Assembly: GCA_017404585.1 (NCBI GenBank)
Contig: JAFRCB010000138.1
Location: forward strand, 1-8,872
Reading direction: 5' to 3'
Source of the DNA: Lachnospiraceae bacterium
GTDB taxonomy: Bacteria > Bacillota > Clostridia > Lachnospirales > Lachnospiraceae
DNA: 8,872 nt
In this document: positions 1-7,692 of the stretch, piece by piece
How positions within the stretch are numbered: the first letter of the stretch is position 1
Layout of the letters: every line of letters starts with the position of its first letter
Made by a program: the position numbers and the translations under genes
Notes under the pieces: model-generated
Seen by the model: only the letters and a program-made list of their open reading frames with translations
Told to the model about the DNA's origin: nothing
Databases searched by the model: none

Positions 1-848
1 AGCACTTTGGCCGTAACACCCTCATCTGCCAGCGCCCGCGCCAGACTTAACGAATAAATCTGTTCGCCGATGATGGCACACTCTTTCGCCTCGCCGACCT
101 GCGCCGCCATGAGTTTTCCGTCAAACGGCAGGCCGCAGACATACGGAATACCGAAACGATCCTGCAATACCCGCGCGGCCGCCAGTCCCCCGTAAGAGAC
201 AACCAGATCGATATCCGCTTCACCGGCCCGGGCGATTTGTTCCAGAGAGTCACCCATCGCAAAGCAGGACAGACACTCCATCCCGTGGTCAAGCAGCCAG
301 CGTTTCAGCGACTCTACCGTCCCTGTAATGCCCATATCGAGCGGGGTCGCGCCCAGGATATTGACCTTGGGAGTCCCGTTCAAAACGTGCTTTTCTTCAG
401 GTTCGCATACGAGCCGCTCGGCCACCGCCTTTAAGGCATCGCGCACGCCGCGTGTGTAGTAGCGCATACCGTTCGAATCGAATCCGAAACAAGGTATGTG
501 CAGTTCCTTTTCGAGCAGGAATGCGATCGCCTTGTAATCAGTACCGACCATGTAGGGCACAGGCGCGCCAACGATAGCGGCAAACTTAGGATGATACTTA
601 CGCGCCACATCGAGCACGTCTTCGATCAGTTTCTCATCCTTGCCTAGGATCGTCTCATTCTGGGAGAGCGCCGAGATATAGATCATGCTGTCCATGTCAT
701 ACCAGCGCGGCTCATCGTGTGTCGTATAGGTCGAATTACAGCCGGATGCATCGTGAATGACGACCAGTCCGCCCAGCTCGTAGAGCGCCGAGCAGACCCC
801 GAACTCATCGGACGAATAAGTTGATGTCAAAGCAAATGTCTGTTTCAT
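1..848 (-). CDS. nitrogenase component 1-like protein (NifK-like partner), 3' end cut by window edge
   Basis: The visible 282 residues have the nitrogenase component 1 fold pattern seen in NifD, NifK, BchN/B and relatives. C19 is followed by H32 and G36-C37, matching the first two cluster cysteines. Next come an ALSQNETILGKDEKLIEDV block (roughly residues 60-78) and a second Rossmann-like unit (NILGATPLDMGITGTVESL, then an FGIPYVCGLPF segment). The third cluster cysteine of NifK appears to be missing, with P96 at that place. The start is fixed by an ATGA overlap with the stop of the preceding NifD-like gene, so the two are translationally coupled and probably form a complex. The family binds metal clusters and receives electrons from a NifH-like ATPase, which is not in this window. 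The substrate is unknown, and nothing supports true nitrogen fixation. I am sure of the superfamily but not of the subgroup. Confidence 0.85.
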   Translation of the reverse strand, partial: MKQTFALTSTYSSDEFGVCSALYELGGLVVIHDASGCNSTYTTHDEPRWYDMDSMIYISALSQNETILGKDEKLIEDVLDVARKYHPKFAAIVGAPVPYMVGTDYKAIAFLLEKELHIPCFGFDSNGMRYYTRGVRDALKAVAERLVCEPEEKHVLNGTPKVNILGATPLDMGITGTVESLKRWLLDHGMECLSCFAMGDSLEQIARAGEADIDLVVSYGGLAAARVLQDRFGIPYVCGLPFDGKLMAAQVGEAKECAIIGEQIYSLSLARALADEGVTAKV

Positions 849-2203
849 ACGCAACTCTCGCAGCCGAATCCCTTCTGGCGGATCAGCGCTCTTCTCTCTT
901 TCCTGTTCTCATAGGCATCGATGATCAGTTCCGCGATCCGGCAGATCCCGTCATAGCCGAGGAACCCGCCGCCTTCCGCCACATTGACAAAATAATCTGT
1001 AGCAAAGAAGTAGGCCGCTTTCTGGCCGATCGCCAGATATCGTCTCTCTGCCTGATCTACGCGTTCGTCAGCCTCATGTTCTCCGGCAAAGAAACGGCTC
1101 TCCGGCTGGTTCGTCGCCAGGATATCAATATCGGGATGCGTCTGCTGCAATGCCTCAAACGCAGCCTTATCTTCCGGCTGGATCAGATCGGTGCAGATCG
1201 CCTGCATGTTAAACCCGTAATCCGCCAGCATTTTGGCAAATGAAACGATGCGTGTGCTGAATGTAAAGTCCACTGCCACCGGCAAATCTCCGACCACTTG
1301 GGCTGCACGCTTCATCGCAGCATCCGCCGCAGCGCGCTCCGCCGTAAAATCAGGAGCCGGGATACCCAGATAATCAGCCAGCGCCTGATAGGCCCCGTCG
1401 ATCTCGTCGAACTGGAAGCTGTTTGTGAAATAGAAGCTCTCCATATCCAGACGCTTTTTAAGGTCTTTCATCTCGGCCGCGCACACCGGTTCATAGTAGA
1501 TATTCAGACCGGCATTTGCCATGTCCAGATACTCCGCAAATGTCTTGCAGTCATGTATGCTCTTAAGCTCATAGCCGGCATCCGTCAGCCACCTGCGCAG
1601 CTCCGCGCTCTCGGACAAGCGCAGGTTGGAACCGAGGATATTGATGCGCTTCGGGTCATTGCCCGTGCGCTCCTGCCAGACGCGCGTCATCTGTCTTCGC
1701 ATCCGCTGCTCAGGTGAGATGCCGCTCTTGCGCATCGCCGGAATCATATAACAATCCAGAAACACAATATCCGGATGAGCCTGCCTGATGCGCTTAAACA
1801 CACTGTTGTGGTCATAACTCAGGAAGAAATGCTGACAGCTGATAAAGATCTGCACACATTTCGGCCTGTAGGGAAGCTTGTTGAGCACATCATCCACACC
1901 GTTTACCATCAGGTCCTCGATCGATCCGGTGATGATGTCGTGCTCACGGATCGCCAGTGTTGAATAACGCCCCAGTGCATTCATCTCGGCGGCGGTCAGC
2001 ACAACGCCGCGCAAACACCCGTATGCACAGACAAAAATCTGGTGCGATTCGGGCATCAAAAGACCTGTATGGGCGATGTTCCACATCCCTCTGGCGGGCG
2101 TACTGTACTCGAGCCCCATGTAAAATGGAGACGGGTACGGCGCCTCTGTGATTTTCAGTTTTCCGGTGCGCTGTGGCCCCTGCGCATTGACTTTTTTGAG
2201 CAT
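845..2203 (-). CDS. nitrogenase component 1-like protein (NifD-like), first gene of the pair
   Basis: This 452-residue protein belongs to the oxidoreductase/nitrogenase component 1 superfamily. A cysteine pair C59-x3-C63 lies in FVCAYGCLRGVVLTAAEMN. After it comes REHDIITGSIEDLMVNGVDD (about 86-105), the counterpart of the E-x-D-I-x-G-G segment. A third cysteine, C123, lies in IFISCQH. A second domain begins near NILGSNLRLSESAELRRWL. The protein ends in an unusual C-x2-C tail (C448, C451). The three N-terminal cysteines resemble the set that holds the P-cluster or a [4Fe-4S] cluster. The start at 2203 has GTGAGG a few bases upstream. Its stop overlaps the next gene by four bases (ATGA). It is not recognisably NifD, BchN, CfbD or MarD, so the reaction is unknown. 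Reduction of a small substrate or a cofactor is the family's usual role. Confidence 0.85.
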   Translation of the reverse strand: MLKKVNAQGPQRTGKLKITEAPYPSPFYMGLEYSTPARGMWNIAHTGLLMPESHQIFVCAYGCLRGVVLTAAEMNALGRYSTLAIREHDIITGSIEDLMVNGVDDVLNKLPYRPKCVQIFISCQHFFLSYDHNSVFKRIRQAHPDIVFLDCYMIPAMRKSGISPEQRMRRQMTRVWQERTGNDPKRINILGSNLRLSESAELRRWLTDAGYELKSIHDCKTFAEYLDMANAGLNIYYEPVCAAEMKDLKKRLDMESFYFTNSFQFDEIDGAYQALADYLGIPAPDFTAERAAADAAMKRAAQVVGDLPVAVDFTFSTRIVSFAKMLADYGFNMQAICTDLIQPEDKAAFEALQQTHPDIDILATNQPESRFFAGEHEADERVDQAERRYLAIGQKAAYFFATDYFVNVAEGGGFLGYDGICRIAELIIDAYENRKERRALIRQKGFGCESCV

Positions 2204-2220: not shown

Positions 2221-2254
2221 TAAGGCTCATGTTCTGATCTGAACATGAGCCTTA
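2221..2254 (-). terminator. perfect 14-bp hairpin just before the NifD-like gene (possible attenuator)
   Basis: TAAGGCTCATGTTC (2221-2234) and GAACATGAGCCTTA (2241-2254) are exact reverse complements around a 6-nt loop. On the minus strand the hairpin is followed by TTTT directly after the TTA end, so the 3' side reads CCTTATTTTGC. That is a plausible though short U-tract. It ends about 17 nt before the start codon at 2203, so it could stop transcription before the gene. The loop centre is GATC, so the whole 34 bp is almost a palindrome and could instead be a DNA operator. On the plus strand a CTTCTTTTTT run follows seven bases later, so weak bidirectional termination is possible. Confidence 0.6.
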
Positions 2255-2458: not shown

Positions 2459-3574
2459 TTACTTTTCAAAGTCAAAATGATAATCCAGACCCAGTTCATC
2501 GCGGATGGTAATGATCTCTTTCTGGACAGCTTCCCCGACGGGAACGCCCTTATCCTTGCGCTCCAGCCAGACCAGATACTCTTTCTCACCGGCCGTGTAT
2601 ATGCGTTCACATCCGGGAGCCTTCTTCGATGCGCGCAGCGCGCGGCAGATTTCACCGGCGATCTTCTCAAATGTTTCGCATCCGCAGAATGCATCGGGAT
2701 CGACAACAAAGAAGAAATGACCGAGATGATACATCTGACGGCTGCCATTGGCCGCTTTGCCAGATAGCGCTTTCATGAACTGTCCGCCGGCCAGAGCCGC
2801 TGAGAGTATCTCCACTACTGTGGCGTAGCCATAGCCCTTGTAGCCGCCCAGTTCCTCTCCGATCCCGCCGAGAGGCGCCAGTGCCGCTGTTCCATCGACG
2901 AGCGCTTTGAGAATCGCATCGCTGTCCGTCATCGGTGTTCCGTCCTCAGCGATTACCTGACCCATCGGGGTCTTCTTCCCTTCGCGGGCATAGTACTCAA
3001 TCTTACCGCGCTGCACGATCGATGTCGCACAGTCGATGCAGAACGGAAATTCCTCATCCGTCGGCAGGGAGAAAGTCAGCGGGTTGGTCCCCAGCATGTT
3101 CTCAACACCGAATGTCGGAGCGATCGACGGACGCGCATTGGTACCGGTAATACCGATCATGCCCTGATCGCTGGCCATCGAGGTCCAGTAACCTGCAATA
3201 CCGTAATGGGTCGAATTGCGAATCGCACCGCCGGCCATACCGTAGGTTTTGGCCTTTTCGATCAGCTTTTCCATCATACGGTAGCTGGCCACCATACCCA
3301 TACCGTCATGTGCATCCATGACCAGCGTCGTCGGTGTCTCTTTGACAATCTCCAGATCGGTCACCGGCAGCAGTGTACCGTTCTTGATGCGGTCAATATA
3401 GATCGGTTTAAAACGGTTACAGCCGTGGCTTTCAATACCGCGTCGATCCGCCTCAAGCAAGACGTCCGCACAGATCGCCGCTTCATCACGCGGCACGCCG
3501 TATGCGGCAAACACATCAGTCATAAATGCATTCATTTGTTCCCATGATACATAAGGTCTGGTTTCTACTGCCAT
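2459..3574 (-). CDS. Ldh_2 family NAD(P)-dependent malate/L-lactate/ureidoglycolate-type dehydrogenase
   Basis: This is a 371-residue cytoplasmic oxidoreductase of the malate/L-lactate dehydrogenase (Ldh_2, YlbC/AllD/YiaK) family, which interconverts 2-hydroxy and 2-oxo acids with NAD(P)H. Family blocks are ADRRGIESHGCNRF (42-55), AIRNSTHYGIAGYW (117-130) with probable catalytic H123, MLGTNPLTFSLPT (160-172), DCATS (181-185) and a C-terminal GGYKGYG glycine segment. An in-frame ATG 15 bases further upstream overlaps the ribosome binding site. The ATG at 3574 has GAGGAG at ideal spacing, so I chose it. It is the last gene of the operon, 79 bp after the SorC regulator with no terminator between. 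The substrate cannot be read from sequence; a sugar acid or a malate/lactate-like acid fits. Confidence 0.88.
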   Translation of the reverse strand: MAVETRPYVSWEQMNAFMTDVFAAYGVPRDEAAICADVLLEADRRGIESHGCNRFKPIYIDRIKNGTLLPVTDLEIVKETPTTLVMDAHDGMGMVASYRMMEKLIEKAKTYGMAGGAIRNSTHYGIAGYWTSMASDQGMIGITGTNARPSIAPTFGVENMLGTNPLTFSLPTDEEFPFCIDCATSIVQRGKIEYYAREGKKTPMGQVIAEDGTPMTDSDAILKALVDGTAALAPLGGIGEELGGYKGYGYATVVEILSAALAGGQFMKALSGKAANGSRQMYHLGHFFFVVDPDAFCGCETFEKIAGEICRALRASKKAPGCERIYTAGEKEYLVWLERKDKGVPVGEAVQKEIITIRDELGLDYHFDFEK

Positions 3575-3653
3575 GATCTGTCTCCTCATCTTGGGTTATA
3601 TGATTAAAATACGATTTCTTTCCTGTTCAGTTTAATCCTTTTCAGCAGATTTG

Positions 3654-4613
3654 TCAGCAATCAGCATCATCTTCCAGCAATTTCAAAGCACAGTTATAGT
3701 CTGTGATGAGCGTGTTGACAAATCCTCCTGCAACAGCCCCTTTAATGGCTTTCTCTTTGTCCATGCCGCCGGCAATGCCGACGGTGAGAGGGATTTTCTT
3801 AAGCTTGCGTGCTTCAACCCCGATAACATAATTATCTTCCTTAAACGGAGCCGTTTCTCCCTGGATATCGTAGAACTGCATATTGATCTCTCCGGCAACT
3901 CCCTTTTGCAGCAAGGTCTCCATCTCATTTTCAGCAAAATACCCTGTGGCTTTTATGGAGGAATACTCATTGGGATAACCGATACCCAAAATGGCGATAT
4001 CCATCTTGTTTGCGTAGGTCATCATAGTGGTTACGGGCATGTCCTTCATCAGTCCGTTCCGTGTCACCCGGCTGTAGACACGAGCCGGGGCAAACATCGG
4101 ATGAAATTCACTGTTATAGAGATGGGCCAGGTGCTCGGCCAGAGAGTTGGCATGGATCTTGATATGGGCATGACCTACTCCTCCCACAAGAGGAATAACC
4201 GTGATCTTTTTATCCCGGCACTCTTCCATCTCCATCACGACCTGATGGAGGGTACTGCCCATGGATATTCCCACCACATCCTGGTCCTTAATCAAGTGTC
4301 CCAGGTAAGCGGCGGCGATGCGCCCGATATTCTTTTTCGTCTCCTCACCGGTAATCCCGGAATCCGCGATCAGCACATCCTTGAGATGATACTTCTCTTT
4401 GATGCGCTCGCTGAGTTCCCAGTACCTGACAAAATCAGCGTCAGTCACCTCGATCTTGATGAGTTTCTCTTCCTTTGCGCCGTTAAGAAGCCTTGACAAT
4501 GTCGGTCTGGAAATGTTCAGAGCCGAAGCGACCTCCTGCTGGGACAGGTTCTCATTGTAGTACATATCGCAGGCCTTAATCATCAGGCGCAGGTCATTAA
4601 CCACTTTTTTCAT
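3654..4613 (-). CDS. SorC-family (DeoR-like) transcriptional regulator with sugar-phosphate-binding domain
   Basis: The 319-residue protein has an N-terminal helix-turn-helix at about 23-43 (LSQQEVASALNISRPTLSRL), a short linker, and a SorC effector domain with the VVGISMGSTLHQVV phosphate-binding loop near 113-126. A VIPLVGGVG segment and a GIAGGMDKEKAIKGAVAGGF segment near the C-terminus are also typical of the family. SorC regulators (SorC, DeoR of Bacillus, CggR, LsrR) bind phosphorylated sugars, which releases or remodels DNA binding. The start at 4613 overlaps the stop of the isomerase gene by four bases (ATGA), so it is translated with the catabolic genes and probably regulates its own operon. 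The effector is probably the isomerase substrate or product. Confidence 0.9.
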   Translation of the reverse strand: MKKVVNDLRLMIKACDMYYNENLSQQEVASALNISRPTLSRLLNGAKEEKLIKIEVTDADFVRYWELSERIKEKYHLKDVLIADSGITGEETKKNIGRIAAAYLGHLIKDQDVVGISMGSTLHQVVMEMEECRDKKITVIPLVGGVGHAHIKIHANSLAEHLAHLYNSEFHPMFAPARVYSRVTRNGLMKDMPVTTMMTYANKMDIAILGIGYPNEYSSIKATGYFAENEMETLLQKGVAGEINMQFYDIQGETAPFKEDNYVIGVEARKLKKIPLTVGIAGGMDKEKAIKGAVAGGFVNTLITDYNCALKLLEDDADC

Positions 4614-5068
4614 GCTGTCTTAAGTTCCTCTATCTGCTCGTTCTCGAAATCAACGATTCTCAGCACTTTGTCCTTGGATCTGCTGTTGGGATCAAAGGTG
4701 TTGGCCAAGTATTCTTCGACCATGCATCTTGCCAGCTTCTCGCCAATGATCTGTGAGCCCATGGTGATCACGTTGGCATTGTTGGAGAGCGCCGCTCTCT
4801 GTGCCTGATAAACATCATGAATGCACGCTGCATAAGCACCCTGCACTTTGTTTGCCGCAATGGAAACACCGATTCCGGTTCCGCATACGATGATGGCTCT
4901 GTCATATTCACCGGAGGCAACTGCCTGCGCGCATTTGATGGCAACATTGGCATAGATGGGGTCATCACTGCCGAAGTCAGCCACTTCATGGCCAAGCTCT
5001 TTCACAAAATCAAGCAGGTTTAATTTGAACTCTGTTGCGTTTGGGTCACTTCCGAATACGATCTTCAT
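4610..5068 (-). CDS. RpiB/LacA/LacB family sugar-phosphate isomerase
   Basis: The 152-residue protein is full length for the family, which interconverts aldose and ketose phosphates. The core motif IVCGTGIGVSIAANKVQGAYAA (61-81) includes the catalytic-base cysteine C62. An ALSNNANVITMGSQIIGEKLA segment (93 onward) follows. Two positions differ from E. coli RpiB: the N-terminal D-H is D8-P9, and the ring-opening His of the HNDTNV motif is S95. This argues against ribose 5-phosphate and for another, perhaps open-chain, substrate such as a tetrulose or triose phosphate, or a LacAB-like one (inference). AAGGAG lies six bases before the ATG. The gene starts 50 bp after the HAD stop and overlaps the regulator. 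Confidence 0.9.
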   Translation of the reverse strand: MKIVFGSDPNATEFKLNLLDFVKELGHEVADFGSDDPIYANVAIKCAQAVASGEYDRAIIVCGTGIGVSIAANKVQGAYAACIHDVYQAQRAALSNNANVITMGSQIIGEKLARCMVEEYLANTFDPNSRSKDKVLRIVDFENEQIEELKTA

Positions 5069-5118
5069 GATAATCTCCTTTTCCGACTCTTCATTCTTAA
5101 TACGTGTGCTATTTATTC

Positions 5119-5913
5119 CTAGAGGTATTTTCTCATTTCATTCAGTGATTCATAGATGCAGGTGGGTTTCACATCGGACTCTGCCACTGTCTGCATATCC
5201 GCTTCTCCGGTGAGAACCAGAAAACCCTTACAGCCATTGTCGACACCCGTTCTCACGTCTGTGTAGAGGCGGTCGCCAACAAAAGCTATTTCCTCCGGTT
5301 TATAGCCGGTGATCTCCGTAATCATATCCACCGTTTCCTTCCATGGTTTGCCCAGGAACCTTGGCTTCACTCCGGTGGATGCTGTGATCAGGCTGCACAT
5401 AGCGCCGCAATCCGGCATGTAGCCGTAGTCCGTGGGACAGTTGACATCCATATGGGTGGCAATAAAAGGAACCCCGTTGCGGATGTAATGGCAGATGCGA
5501 TCCAGCTTCTGGTAAGTCAGGGTGGTGTCAAAACTCTGGACACAGACATCCGGGTCTTCCTCCACCAGCTTGAGCCCCTTCTCTTTCCAGTTCTTCTCAA
5601 GCACAGGTGTGCCGTTCAGATAAATACGCGCGCCGGGGTAATTCACCTTTAAGTACTCCGCGCAGACATCACCCGCTGTGACCACGTGCCTCTCATCCAC
5701 ACAGATCCCCATCCTGGCCAGCTTTTCCACATAGACAGAGGGAACTCTGGATGCATTGTTGGTAAAAAAGATGTAGTCCCTGTCGGGATCTTCCTCCACC
5801 TCACGGATGAAATCAAGCGCTCCTTCGATCGGAGTATCGCTGAGATAGACCGTTCCGTCCATATCCAGGACAAACAGTTTGACACCCTTTAACGCTTCTT
5901 CTTTCGGCAGCAT
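5119..5913 (-). CDS. HAD-IIA (NagD/AraL-type) sugar phosphatase
   Basis: The 264-residue protein has all HAD phosphatase motifs: DMDGT (17-21, nucleophile D17 and acid/base D19), FTNNAS (50-55), K189 in LGKPW, and GDRLYTDV (213-220) with the Mg-binding acids. The large insert between motifs II and III is the C2A cap of NagD-type enzymes, which hydrolyse small phosphorylated sugars, polyols or nucleotides. The start at 5913 is preceded by AAAGGAG at good spacing, and the open frame before it has no such site. It lies 22 bp after the glycerol-1-phosphate dehydrogenase gene. The same pairing occurs as AraL-AraM in Bacillus subtilis, so a sugar- or glycerol-phosphate phosphatase role is reasonable but inferred. 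Confidence 0.9.
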   Translation of the reverse strand: MLPKEEALKGVKLFVLDMDGTVYLSDTPIEGALDFIREVEEDPDRDYIFFTNNASRVPSVYVEKLARMGICVDERHVVTAGDVCAEYLKVNYPGARIYLNGTPVLEKNWKEKGLKLVEEDPDVCVQSFDTTLTYQKLDRICHYIRNGVPFIATHMDVNCPTDYGYMPDCGAMCSLITASTGVKPRFLGKPWKETVDMITEITGYKPEEIAFVGDRLYTDVRTGVDNGCKGFLVLTGEADMQTVAESDVKPTCIYESLNEMRKYL

Positions 5914-5935
5914 ATAATCTCCTTTAGCTCTTTCT

Positions 5936-7117
5936 TTATTCACCGTAAAGCTCTGCGGTGATCTTGCCGGCAATGGTCTCTAAAACGCCCTTATCCTTTG
6001 CGAACTGCAAAACAGAATAACGGGGCCTTACCTTATACCCTTTCAGAAGGCTCTCATGGAAAAGCTCTCTGCTGATATTGATCTGCTGCGGTCTGTACGG
6101 GGCTCCCCCGCGCTGAAGAAGCGCTTCGATCTCCTCATGAGGAGGGCAAAAGTCTTTTACGCCTTCCGGAAGCAGATCTTCCAGTTCCTCATAGAAGCGG
6201 GCAATGACCGGTGTGGCAACACCCACCTGAATACCGTGGTGATTGGGATTGACACCGCGCTCAACCGAATCCATCTCCCAGAAATGGGACAGCATATGCT
6301 CTGCTCCGGAGGCCGGTCTGGATATATTGACCAGCGCCATCGCCACACCGGTGAGCGTAAGGCCTTCCAGGAGATCTCCCAGCGCTTTGGGATCACGTGC
6401 AGGCAGTTGATCGCAGGAATCAAAAGTGACCTTCATGGCTCTGTTTGTCAATTCGACACATGTATCACAGCGATAGTCTCCGTTTGCCTTCACGGCGAGA
6501 TCCCAGTCTGCTATCGCGGTAATCTTACCGACCATATCGCCGAAACCGGCCCGGATCAAATCGTCCGGCGCAGTCTCCAGAATATCTGTATCGCCGATCA
6601 GACCGTAGGTAAGATGAGCGACCGGTGAGATCTTATGTCCCTGGGAGAAAATGGGAGCGCCGTCAGATAGATAACCGTCCATAGAAGGAGCGGTTGCCAC
6701 GACGATATAGGGAAGCCCGGATCTGGACGTGACAAACTTGACGGAGTCATTGATGACACCGGAACCGACAGCCACCATGAGGGAAGTGTCAAGGTCCTGC
6801 TCCTCAAGGATGCGTCCAAGCGTCTTCTCGTCCGGAATCAGGATGTCATCACCGGTATCAAAAAGCAGCTCCTTCACATTGAAGCCATTTCCCTTGAGAA
6901 GCTCTACTGCCTGTTTGCCGGCTGCCTGATAGGTATTGCTGTCAAAAACCACAAGGATCTTTCCGTCTCTGAAAGGTTCTGCCATCCCGGGAAGATCCTG
7001 AATGGCTCCCTTTCTGATAGACATCTCATGAACACTGAAGTTGTGACGGCAGCCACAGGAACAGTCGAACTGCGTCTGCGGCATCTCATTGATGTTAAGA
7101 TTTAAGATTTCATTCAT
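5936..7117 (-). CDS. egsA: sn-glycerol-1-phosphate dehydrogenase family protein (AraM/EgsA-like)
   Basis: At 393 residues it is about the length of B. subtilis AraM (near 394). That enzyme reduces dihydroxyacetone phosphate to sn-glycerol 1-phosphate with NAD(P)H and a divalent metal. Visible features are VAVGSGVINDSVKF (114-127, dinucleotide loop), ATAPSMDGYLSDGA (140-153), metal ligands D193 in GFGDMVGK, H273 in GAEHMLSHFWEM, and H293 in NHHGIQVG. A cysteine-rich N-terminal CSCGCRH (19-25) resembles the CSCGxxH of Firmicutes homologues. The ATG at 7117 has AAGGAG ten bases upstream and is the first gene after the promoter. An earlier in-frame ATG at 7177 overlaps the promoter itself and is rejected. 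The substrate may be another short ketose phosphate. Confidence 0.9.
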   Translation of the reverse strand: MNEILNLNINEMPQTQFDCSCGCRHNFSVHEMSIRKGAIQDLPGMAEPFRDGKILVVFDSNTYQAAGKQAVELLKGNGFNVKELLFDTGDDILIPDEKTLGRILEEQDLDTSLMVAVGSGVINDSVKFVTSRSGLPYIVVATAPSMDGYLSDGAPIFSQGHKISPVAHLTYGLIGDTDILETAPDDLIRAGFGDMVGKITAIADWDLAVKANGDYRCDTCVELTNRAMKVTFDSCDQLPARDPKALGDLLEGLTLTGVAMALVNISRPASGAEHMLSHFWEMDSVERGVNPNHHGIQVGVATPVIARFYEELEDLLPEGVKDFCPPHEEIEALLQRGGAPYRPQQINISRELFHESLLKGYKVRPRYSVLQFAKDKGVLETIAGKITAELYGE

Positions 7118-7148
7118 GTGAGGTCGTCTCCTTTTCCCTTCTGGGCTC

Positions 7149-7606: not shown

Positions 7607-7617
7607 CATTTTCCGGA

Positions 7618-7690
7618 TGGGCGCAACGGGGCTCGAACCCGTGACCTCCCGCGTGTGAGGCGGACGCTCTCCCGGCTGAGCTATACTCCC
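7618..7690 (-). tRNA. tRNA-Val, anticodon CAC
   Basis: The minus strand folds as a 73-nt tRNA. The D stem is GCTC/GAGC. The anticodon stem is TCCGC/GCGGG with loop CTCACAC, giving anticodon CAC, which reads GTG. The variable segment is AGGTC and the T arm is ACGGG-TTCGAGC-CCCGT. Discriminator A73 is followed by TCC, so CCA is not encoded. The acceptor is GGGAGTA against TGCGCCC, with an A4/G69 mismatch and a U6-G67 wobble. The mismatch is unusual, but all other arms are intact. Confidence 0.93.
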
Positions 7691-7692
7691 AT

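Follow-up and report, generated by a model that had tools for sequence, protein, structure and literature searches.

A nitrogenase-like operon with Hyp genes as a candidate HydG-independent route to the H-cluster in Lachnospiraceae

Introduction

What purpose is served by two nitrogenase-like genes at the left end of a Lachnospiraceae contig? The window, meaning the whole stretch of DNA analyzed, is one whole contig (G000:C351) of 8872 bases from a source genome that is 65% complete. Most of its nearest named loci belong to Lachnospiraceae and Clostridiales MAGs. The neighbors of the gene pair in related genomes led to the maturation of hydrogenases. HydG is the known source of the CO and cyanide of [FeFe]-hydrogenase (PMC11736057, PMC9431212). 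It is a tyrosine lyase giving an Fe(CO)2(CN) synthon, and it hands an Fe(Cys)(CO)2(CN) unit to HydE (PMC11736057). In the maturation of [NiFe]-hydrogenase cyanide is made from carbamoyl phosphate by HypF and HypE (PMC6802093, PMC4161419). CO is made by HypX in one of two routes (PMC6802093); in the HypCD route CO possibly comes from CO2, a matter of ongoing debate (PMC4161419).

The gene pair and its place in the nitrogenase superfamily

The pair comprises alpha1 and beta1, both members of the nitrogenase component-1 superfamily (PF00148; 83.8 and 92.5 bits, respectively, cut-off 28.6). The alpha1 stop overlaps an ATG of beta1 as ATGA, and from the sequence this ATG is the likely beta1 start. 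Invariant residues in alpha1 were C59, C63, C123, H125, C151, C219 and the C-terminal C448 and C451, with C59, C63 and C123 unchanged across 31 aligned sequences. In beta1 C39 was invariant and C21 nearly invariant (30 sequences). The description of two overlapping component 1-like genes with cluster-type cysteines in the first-pass annotation was thereby borne out. Directly upstream of alpha1 lies an inverted repeat (Table 1). The minus strand of 2204-2270 folded at -24.3 kcal/mol with a z of -5.0, a value equally low in 0 of 200 shuffles. The window also carries carbohydrate-type genes and a tRNA gene.

Table 1. Features of the window and of other contigs discussed in the text.
Feature	Contig or locus	Position	Strand	Remarks
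beta1, nitrogenase component-1 subunit	window	3..854	-	PF00148 match; 284 aa read, C-terminus cut by contig end
alpha1, nitrogenase component-1 subunit	window	845..2203	-	PF00148 match; 452 aa
Inverted repeat, terminator or attenuator candidate	window	2221..2253	.	Seen in sequence; directly upstream of alpha1
Carbohydrate-type genes	window	2459..7123	-	Ldh_2 dehydrogenase, SorC/DeoR-type regulator, RpiB/LacAB isomerase, HAD-IIA phosphatase, glycerol-1-phosphate dehydrogenase-like protein
tRNA-Val (CAC)	window	7615..7691	-	
NifH	C201, window's genome	2..787		Sole PF00142 match of the genome
alpha2	C201, window's genome	833..2125		
beta2	C201, window's genome	ends 3273		Followed by HypF, HypC, HypD, HypE
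TM1266, HydE, second alpha1-type gene	L083 (G000:C116), window's genome	4566..6321		alpha1-type gene cut by contig end
HypF, HypD, divergent alpha1-type gene	L086 (G346)	6668..11744	-	
ABC ATPase with C-terminal TM1266-like domain	L113	13214..14353	-	Beside NifH1-alpha1-beta1
ABC ATPase with C-terminal TM1266-like domain	L117	11732..12832	-	Beside NifH1-alpha1-beta1
ABC ATPase with C-terminal TM1266-like domain	L120	7600..8670	+	Beside NifH1-alpha1-beta1

The pair was compared with the characterized types of the superfamily. With the NCBIfam nitrogenase-type models the best match of beta1 was NifE at 53.3 bits against a cut-off of 505.1, and alpha1 had no match at E 0.1. The BchB model gave 38.1 bits (cut-off 490.35). 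The CfbD model TIGR03282 gave 27.4 bits for beta1 (cut-off 268.4) and no match for alpha1. In a 53-protein tree, whose references were Nif and Bch proteins from plasmid records with CfbD and MarDK absent, alpha1 including that of the window formed a single clade (starred support of 100). The seven beta1 of relatives, the cut beta1 of the window being left out, formed another (starred, 99). Both clades stood apart from NifDKEN and BchNB, although for BchN/B the tree flags meeting long branches. alpha1 fell on the side of NifD/E and beta1 on that of NifK/N and Bch; the naming of the subunits follows these sides, for which support was weak (73). A PDB search with an alpha1 profile of seven sequences had no match at 0.01, and a profile of 31 sequences found NifE at 0.0013. 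In the comparison with MarDK, which is absent from the tree, 9fmg and 9d9u gave weak profile matches, and Z was tied.

The pair was rejected as NifD/K/E/N and as BchN/B (DPOR) by scores far below the family cut-offs and by separate clades in the tree. It was rejected as CfbD by the TIGR03282 score, a test by model only. The proposal that the pair lies outside the nif, bch and cfb types thus agrees with these results, and with Nif and Bch references the pair clustered with no characterized group. ABC transporters accompany more distant nitrogenase-like pairs at L084, L085, L088, L127, L251 and L255, the last two being Treponema saccharophilum plasmids. In the tree the pairs of the first five are placed close to alpha1 and beta1. 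No hydrogenase-maturation genes were seen beside the six.

The NifH partner, a second pair and the operon

The NifH of the window's genome is on contig C201, and after it come another component-1 pair (alpha2 and beta2) and HypF, HypC, HypD and HypE. In a close relative (L007) the order is alpha1-beta1-NifH2-alpha2-beta2-HypF-HypC-HypD-HypE. From this gene order, C201 is likely the continuation of the window beyond its left edge. A NifH-like partner had been expected elsewhere, most simply past the left edge. Such a protein is encoded in the genome, and the predicted position holds in relatives; in the window's own genome NifH is on another contig and its adjacency is deduced from L007.

An alpha1 scan across species genomes gave 34 loci. 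After gene calling and clustering, names were given by similarity to a single locus, and a few members were checked with family models. These confirmed one HydF (562.3 bits, cut-off 325.55), one TM1266 (111.9 bits, cut-off 60.8), HypF, HypD and HypE of L018, and HydF, HydE and HypE of L128. HydF or TM1266 accompanied the pair in 28 of the 34 loci. Three of the other six (L016, L019 and L038) start less than 400 bases from alpha1, and three (L007, L028 and L040) have room for HydF or TM1266 with none present. Neither gene adjoins alpha1 in the window, L007 or L028. HypF was found in 24/34 loci, which are all those running at least 500 bases past beta2; in the remaining ten the contig stops before beta2 or at most 244 bases after it. 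All four Hyp genes were seen in 17/34 loci. NifH1 was present in 28 loci and NifH2 in 31, NifH1 being absent from the loci of the window and L007. The P-loop and cluster cysteines are kept in both NifH types (10 aligned).

At L128 (G337) NifH, a fused alpha2=beta2, HypD, HypE, TM1266, alpha1, beta1, HydF, HydE and HypF form a single run without HydG. L017, from Anaerostipes sp. MSJ-23, also carries the operon. alpha1 and beta1 are fused (alpha1=beta1) in L035 and L038. A beta2=HypF fusion was seen in a single MAG (L010) and may stem from a sequence error.

NifHEN-like sequences of gut Firmicutes (Coprococcus catus, Dorea longicatena) were described as a red clade by Dos Santos et al. (2012, PMC3464626), with one sentence on neighboring "hydrogenase maturation proteins". 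In that clade two NifHEN-like copies are closely linked, hydrogenase-maturation genes are neighbors, and the alpha-like subunit has two P-cluster-type cysteines against one in the beta-like subunit. C. catus and D. longicatena are predicted to lack hydG. The operon shares these described features, by which, and not by sequence, it was matched to the clade. The available text of that paper differs from the present account in that it names no hydrogenase or maturation protein and gives no mechanism or distribution test; "hydg" occurs in it 0 times. The hydrogenase-maturation neighbors of the gut NifHEN-like genes were thus already known (PMC3464626) and the replacement of HydG is the new reading here. 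A literature search, whose scope left out most subscription journals, found no link between nitrogenase-like genes and the absence or replacement of HydG.

HydG is missing from genomes with the operon

The window's genome and 34 relatives, several with only part of the operon on a contig, were surveyed by family cut-off. HydG was above cut-off in 0/35, HydE in 32/35 and the [FeFe]-hydrogenase domain PF02906 in 35/35. PF02906 scored at least 210 bits in 33 genomes, and the best matches in G001 and G002 were weak (105 and 109 bits). The [NiFe] large subunit (PF00374) was found in two genomes, with cysteine motifs as expected by eye. With HydE, an [FeFe]-hydrogenase domain and HydF or TM1266 beside the operon, these genomes resemble those using HydE-HydF-HydG maturation and differ from them in lacking HydG. 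Membership in HydEFG maturation was rejected for this reason.

A diverged or unrelated radical-SAM enzyme might replace HydG, leaving the operon as a helper that, for example, reduces or loads iron. Matches to the HydG model below cut-off (166-188 bits) do occur in 26/35 genomes. Atypical HydG candidates are also reported in acetogens (PMC9431212). That paper did not detect hydG by its motifs in five of the eight acetogenic clostridia it covered, and it offered other explanations. However, the two of the 26 matches examined (L041 and L042) are ThiH-like genes beside ThiG-like genes, named by eye, on which a hidden HydG was rejected. Nine of the 35 genomes have no match above 85 bits. The HydG matches listed for the family score 902-963 bits, and the weakest of all 175 is at E 8.8e-144. 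Substitution by such an enzyme is judged unlikely.

A wider set of 397 genomes was drawn evenly from the window's family and searched for alpha1, HydF, HydG and HypD. Many of the genomes are incomplete and the set may overlap in species with the 35. alpha1 (at least 250 bits) was found in 41, HydF in 218 (217 over cut-off), HydG in 175 and HypD in 79. Among the 218 HydF-positive genomes HydG was missing from 36 of the 39 with alpha1 compared to 12 of the 179 without it (Fisher p = 2.7e-27), and was present in 3 and 167, respectively. HydG was found in 0/29 genomes with alpha1, HypD and HydF. The 250-bit line admits two divergent ABC-linked loci (G082 and G186); with the line at 284 bits the HydF-positive genomes with alpha1 numbered 3 with HydG and 31 without. 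Three genomes with both alpha1 and HydG (G258, G390 and G428) count against replacement of HydG, although all three lack HypD.

A further point against replacement is that twelve HydF-positive genomes have neither HydG nor alpha1 at 250 bits. Two of these (G201 and G346) carry related genes. No alpha1 match at E 1e-20 was found in G045, G081, G148, G156, G162, G176, G215, G360, G396 and G403. HydF and HydE lie side by side in G360 (L124). The L086 locus of G346, a genome with HydF and without HydG, is a possible reduced variant of the operon.

The number of changes in the alpha1 label was counted on two trees. The rpoB tree covered 60 genomes (two of the 62 requested had no match) and required 15 changes, 9 of them forced by starred branches. 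Among nine independent pairs on this tree, HydG went opposite to alpha1 in an average of 8.7 and together with alpha1 in none. The HydF tree covered 63 genomes and required 12 changes, 5 of them forced by starred branches. Both are quick trees with controls picked as HydG-positive, so they show the number of changes; the strictness of the exclusion rests on the 218-genome table. Gains were indistinguishable from losses on both.

A separate HypD clade and probably dedicated Hyp proteins

The operon Hyp proteins have intact motifs, as do those of HypCDEF maturation. HypE ends in LPRIC in 16/16 sequences, HypC has MCVGL in 22/22, and HypD has MEVCGTHT and GPGCPVC in 23/23. The operon differs from HypCDEF maturation of [NiFe]-hydrogenase in that 33/35 of its genomes have no [NiFe] large subunit, on which ground that role was rejected. 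It also differs in that the Hyp genes are joined to nitrogenase-like genes, including the fusion in L010, and in that its HypD forms a separate clade. In a tree of 46 HypD sequences the 28 operon copies were one clade (starred support of 99) with 17 from [NiFe]-bearing genomes outside it. The separation held even in six genomes carrying both types. Among HypD-positive genomes of the family PF00374 was present in 48 of the 50 without alpha1 (absent from G085 and G201) and in 5 of the 29 with alpha1, these five being the alpha1 genomes with two HypD copies.

The proposed route

From its distribution and context the operon most likely replaces HydG, a well supported reading for which the chemistry is a proposal. 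The operon is probably a HydG-independent route to the H-cluster, with cyanide from HypE and HypF and with CO supplied or mounted by a nitrogenase-like, ATP-driven reduction. A Hyp set and an ATP-driven low-potential reductase could together be the kind of kit able to replace HydG. The first-pass suggestion that the pair performs an undescribed reduction was too vague. A new reductase standing alone was dropped after the neighboring genes were read, as the pair sits in an operon with HypF-C-D-E and HydF or TM1266 that is nearly exclusive with HydG.

The chemical steps, and their assignment to either pair, we infer as follows. As in the maturation of [NiFe]-hydrogenase, HypF and HypE would convert carbamoyl phosphate to cyanide on the cysteine at the C-terminus of HypE. 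Iron would be bound by a dedicated HypC-HypD pair. NifH2 with alpha2-beta2 would supply ATP-driven electrons of low potential, reducing CO2 or another carbon source to CO. Reduction of CO2 to CO by the Fe protein is known. Alternatively, NifH2 with alpha2-beta2 might reduce the iron unit and mount it on a scaffold resembling NifEN. The product of this step would be an Fe(CN)(CO)2-type unit, which NifH1 with alpha1-beta1 would reduce or hand on. The last steps would follow the known pathway, with HydE dimerizing the Fe unit and HydF delivering it to HydA. alpha2-beta2 adjoin HypF and alpha1-beta1 often adjoin HydF or HydE, and these neighbors suggest the assignment of alpha2-beta2 to the Hyp proteins and of alpha1-beta1 to HydE and HydF. 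The fullest form of the proposal is put forward tentatively, as a serious candidate. In this form the operon would be a third biological way to metal-bound CO and cyanide. Hyp proteins would give the cyanide, and the nitrogenase-like enzyme would either produce CO from CO2 or assemble the Fe(CN)(CO)2 unit on a scaffold like that of NifEN. The product would go to HydE and HydF, taking over from HydG.

Another reading is that a different enzyme receives a new Fe-CN/CO cofactor from the operon, HydG having been lost for unrelated reasons, for example where HydA is matured with environmental CO and cyanide. In its favor, Hyp proteins act on [NiFe]-type centers in known systems, and weak in vitro activation of HydA (about 1%) with HydE and HydF alone is cited by PMC9431212. 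Set against these points are the HydF, HydE or TM1266 genes in or beside the operon, the exclusion of HydG at p = 2.7e-27 with at least nine label changes on the rpoB tree, and the missing [NiFe] large subunit in 33/35 genomes. Another client enzyme is accordingly improbable.

Members of the superfamily do reduce small substrates, DPOR and MarDK among them. NFL of Rhodobacter capsulatus is a further such member (PMC11423573). That the pair is an ordinary reductase of this kind, acting on a sulfur compound or tetrapyrrole and lying near hydrogenase genes by chance, is nevertheless very improbable, as HypF follows in 24/24 testable loci and HydG is excluded in the family.

If the fullest form of the proposal is correct, the operon would include the first nitrogenase relative manufacturing ligands for a hydrogenase. 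With nitrogenase-like genes and no HydG in 36/218 HydF-positive genomes of one family, H-cluster assembly without HydG becomes testable, as does the source of CO in Hyp maturation. The route would further account for the function of a large "nitrogenase component 1" family of at least 3101 proteins at E 1e-3. The finding may bear on nifH-based claims of gut nitrogen fixation.

A second layout without HypD

Twelve genomes with alpha1 have no HypD, and nine of these also have no HydG. Genomes lacking both leave the source of CO and cyanide unexplained, which counts against replacement of HydG by the operon. Loci were read in 11 of the 12 (L088, L101, L113-L120 and L127; G279 was left out). In eight of these, L088, L116 and L127 being the exceptions, NifH1-alpha1-beta1 had at least one of HydE, HydF and TM1266 nearby. 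Most of the eight have an ABC transporter of iron or siderophore type, named by eye. In three (L113, L117 and L120) the ABC ATPase carries a TM1266-like tail (Table 1), and this transporter possibly imports iron or a ligand complex for H-cluster assembly. A second alpha1-type gene in the window's genome, at L083 beside TM1266 and HydE, shares 54-56% identity with its counterparts in L113, L117 and L120. The window's genome may carry both layouts.
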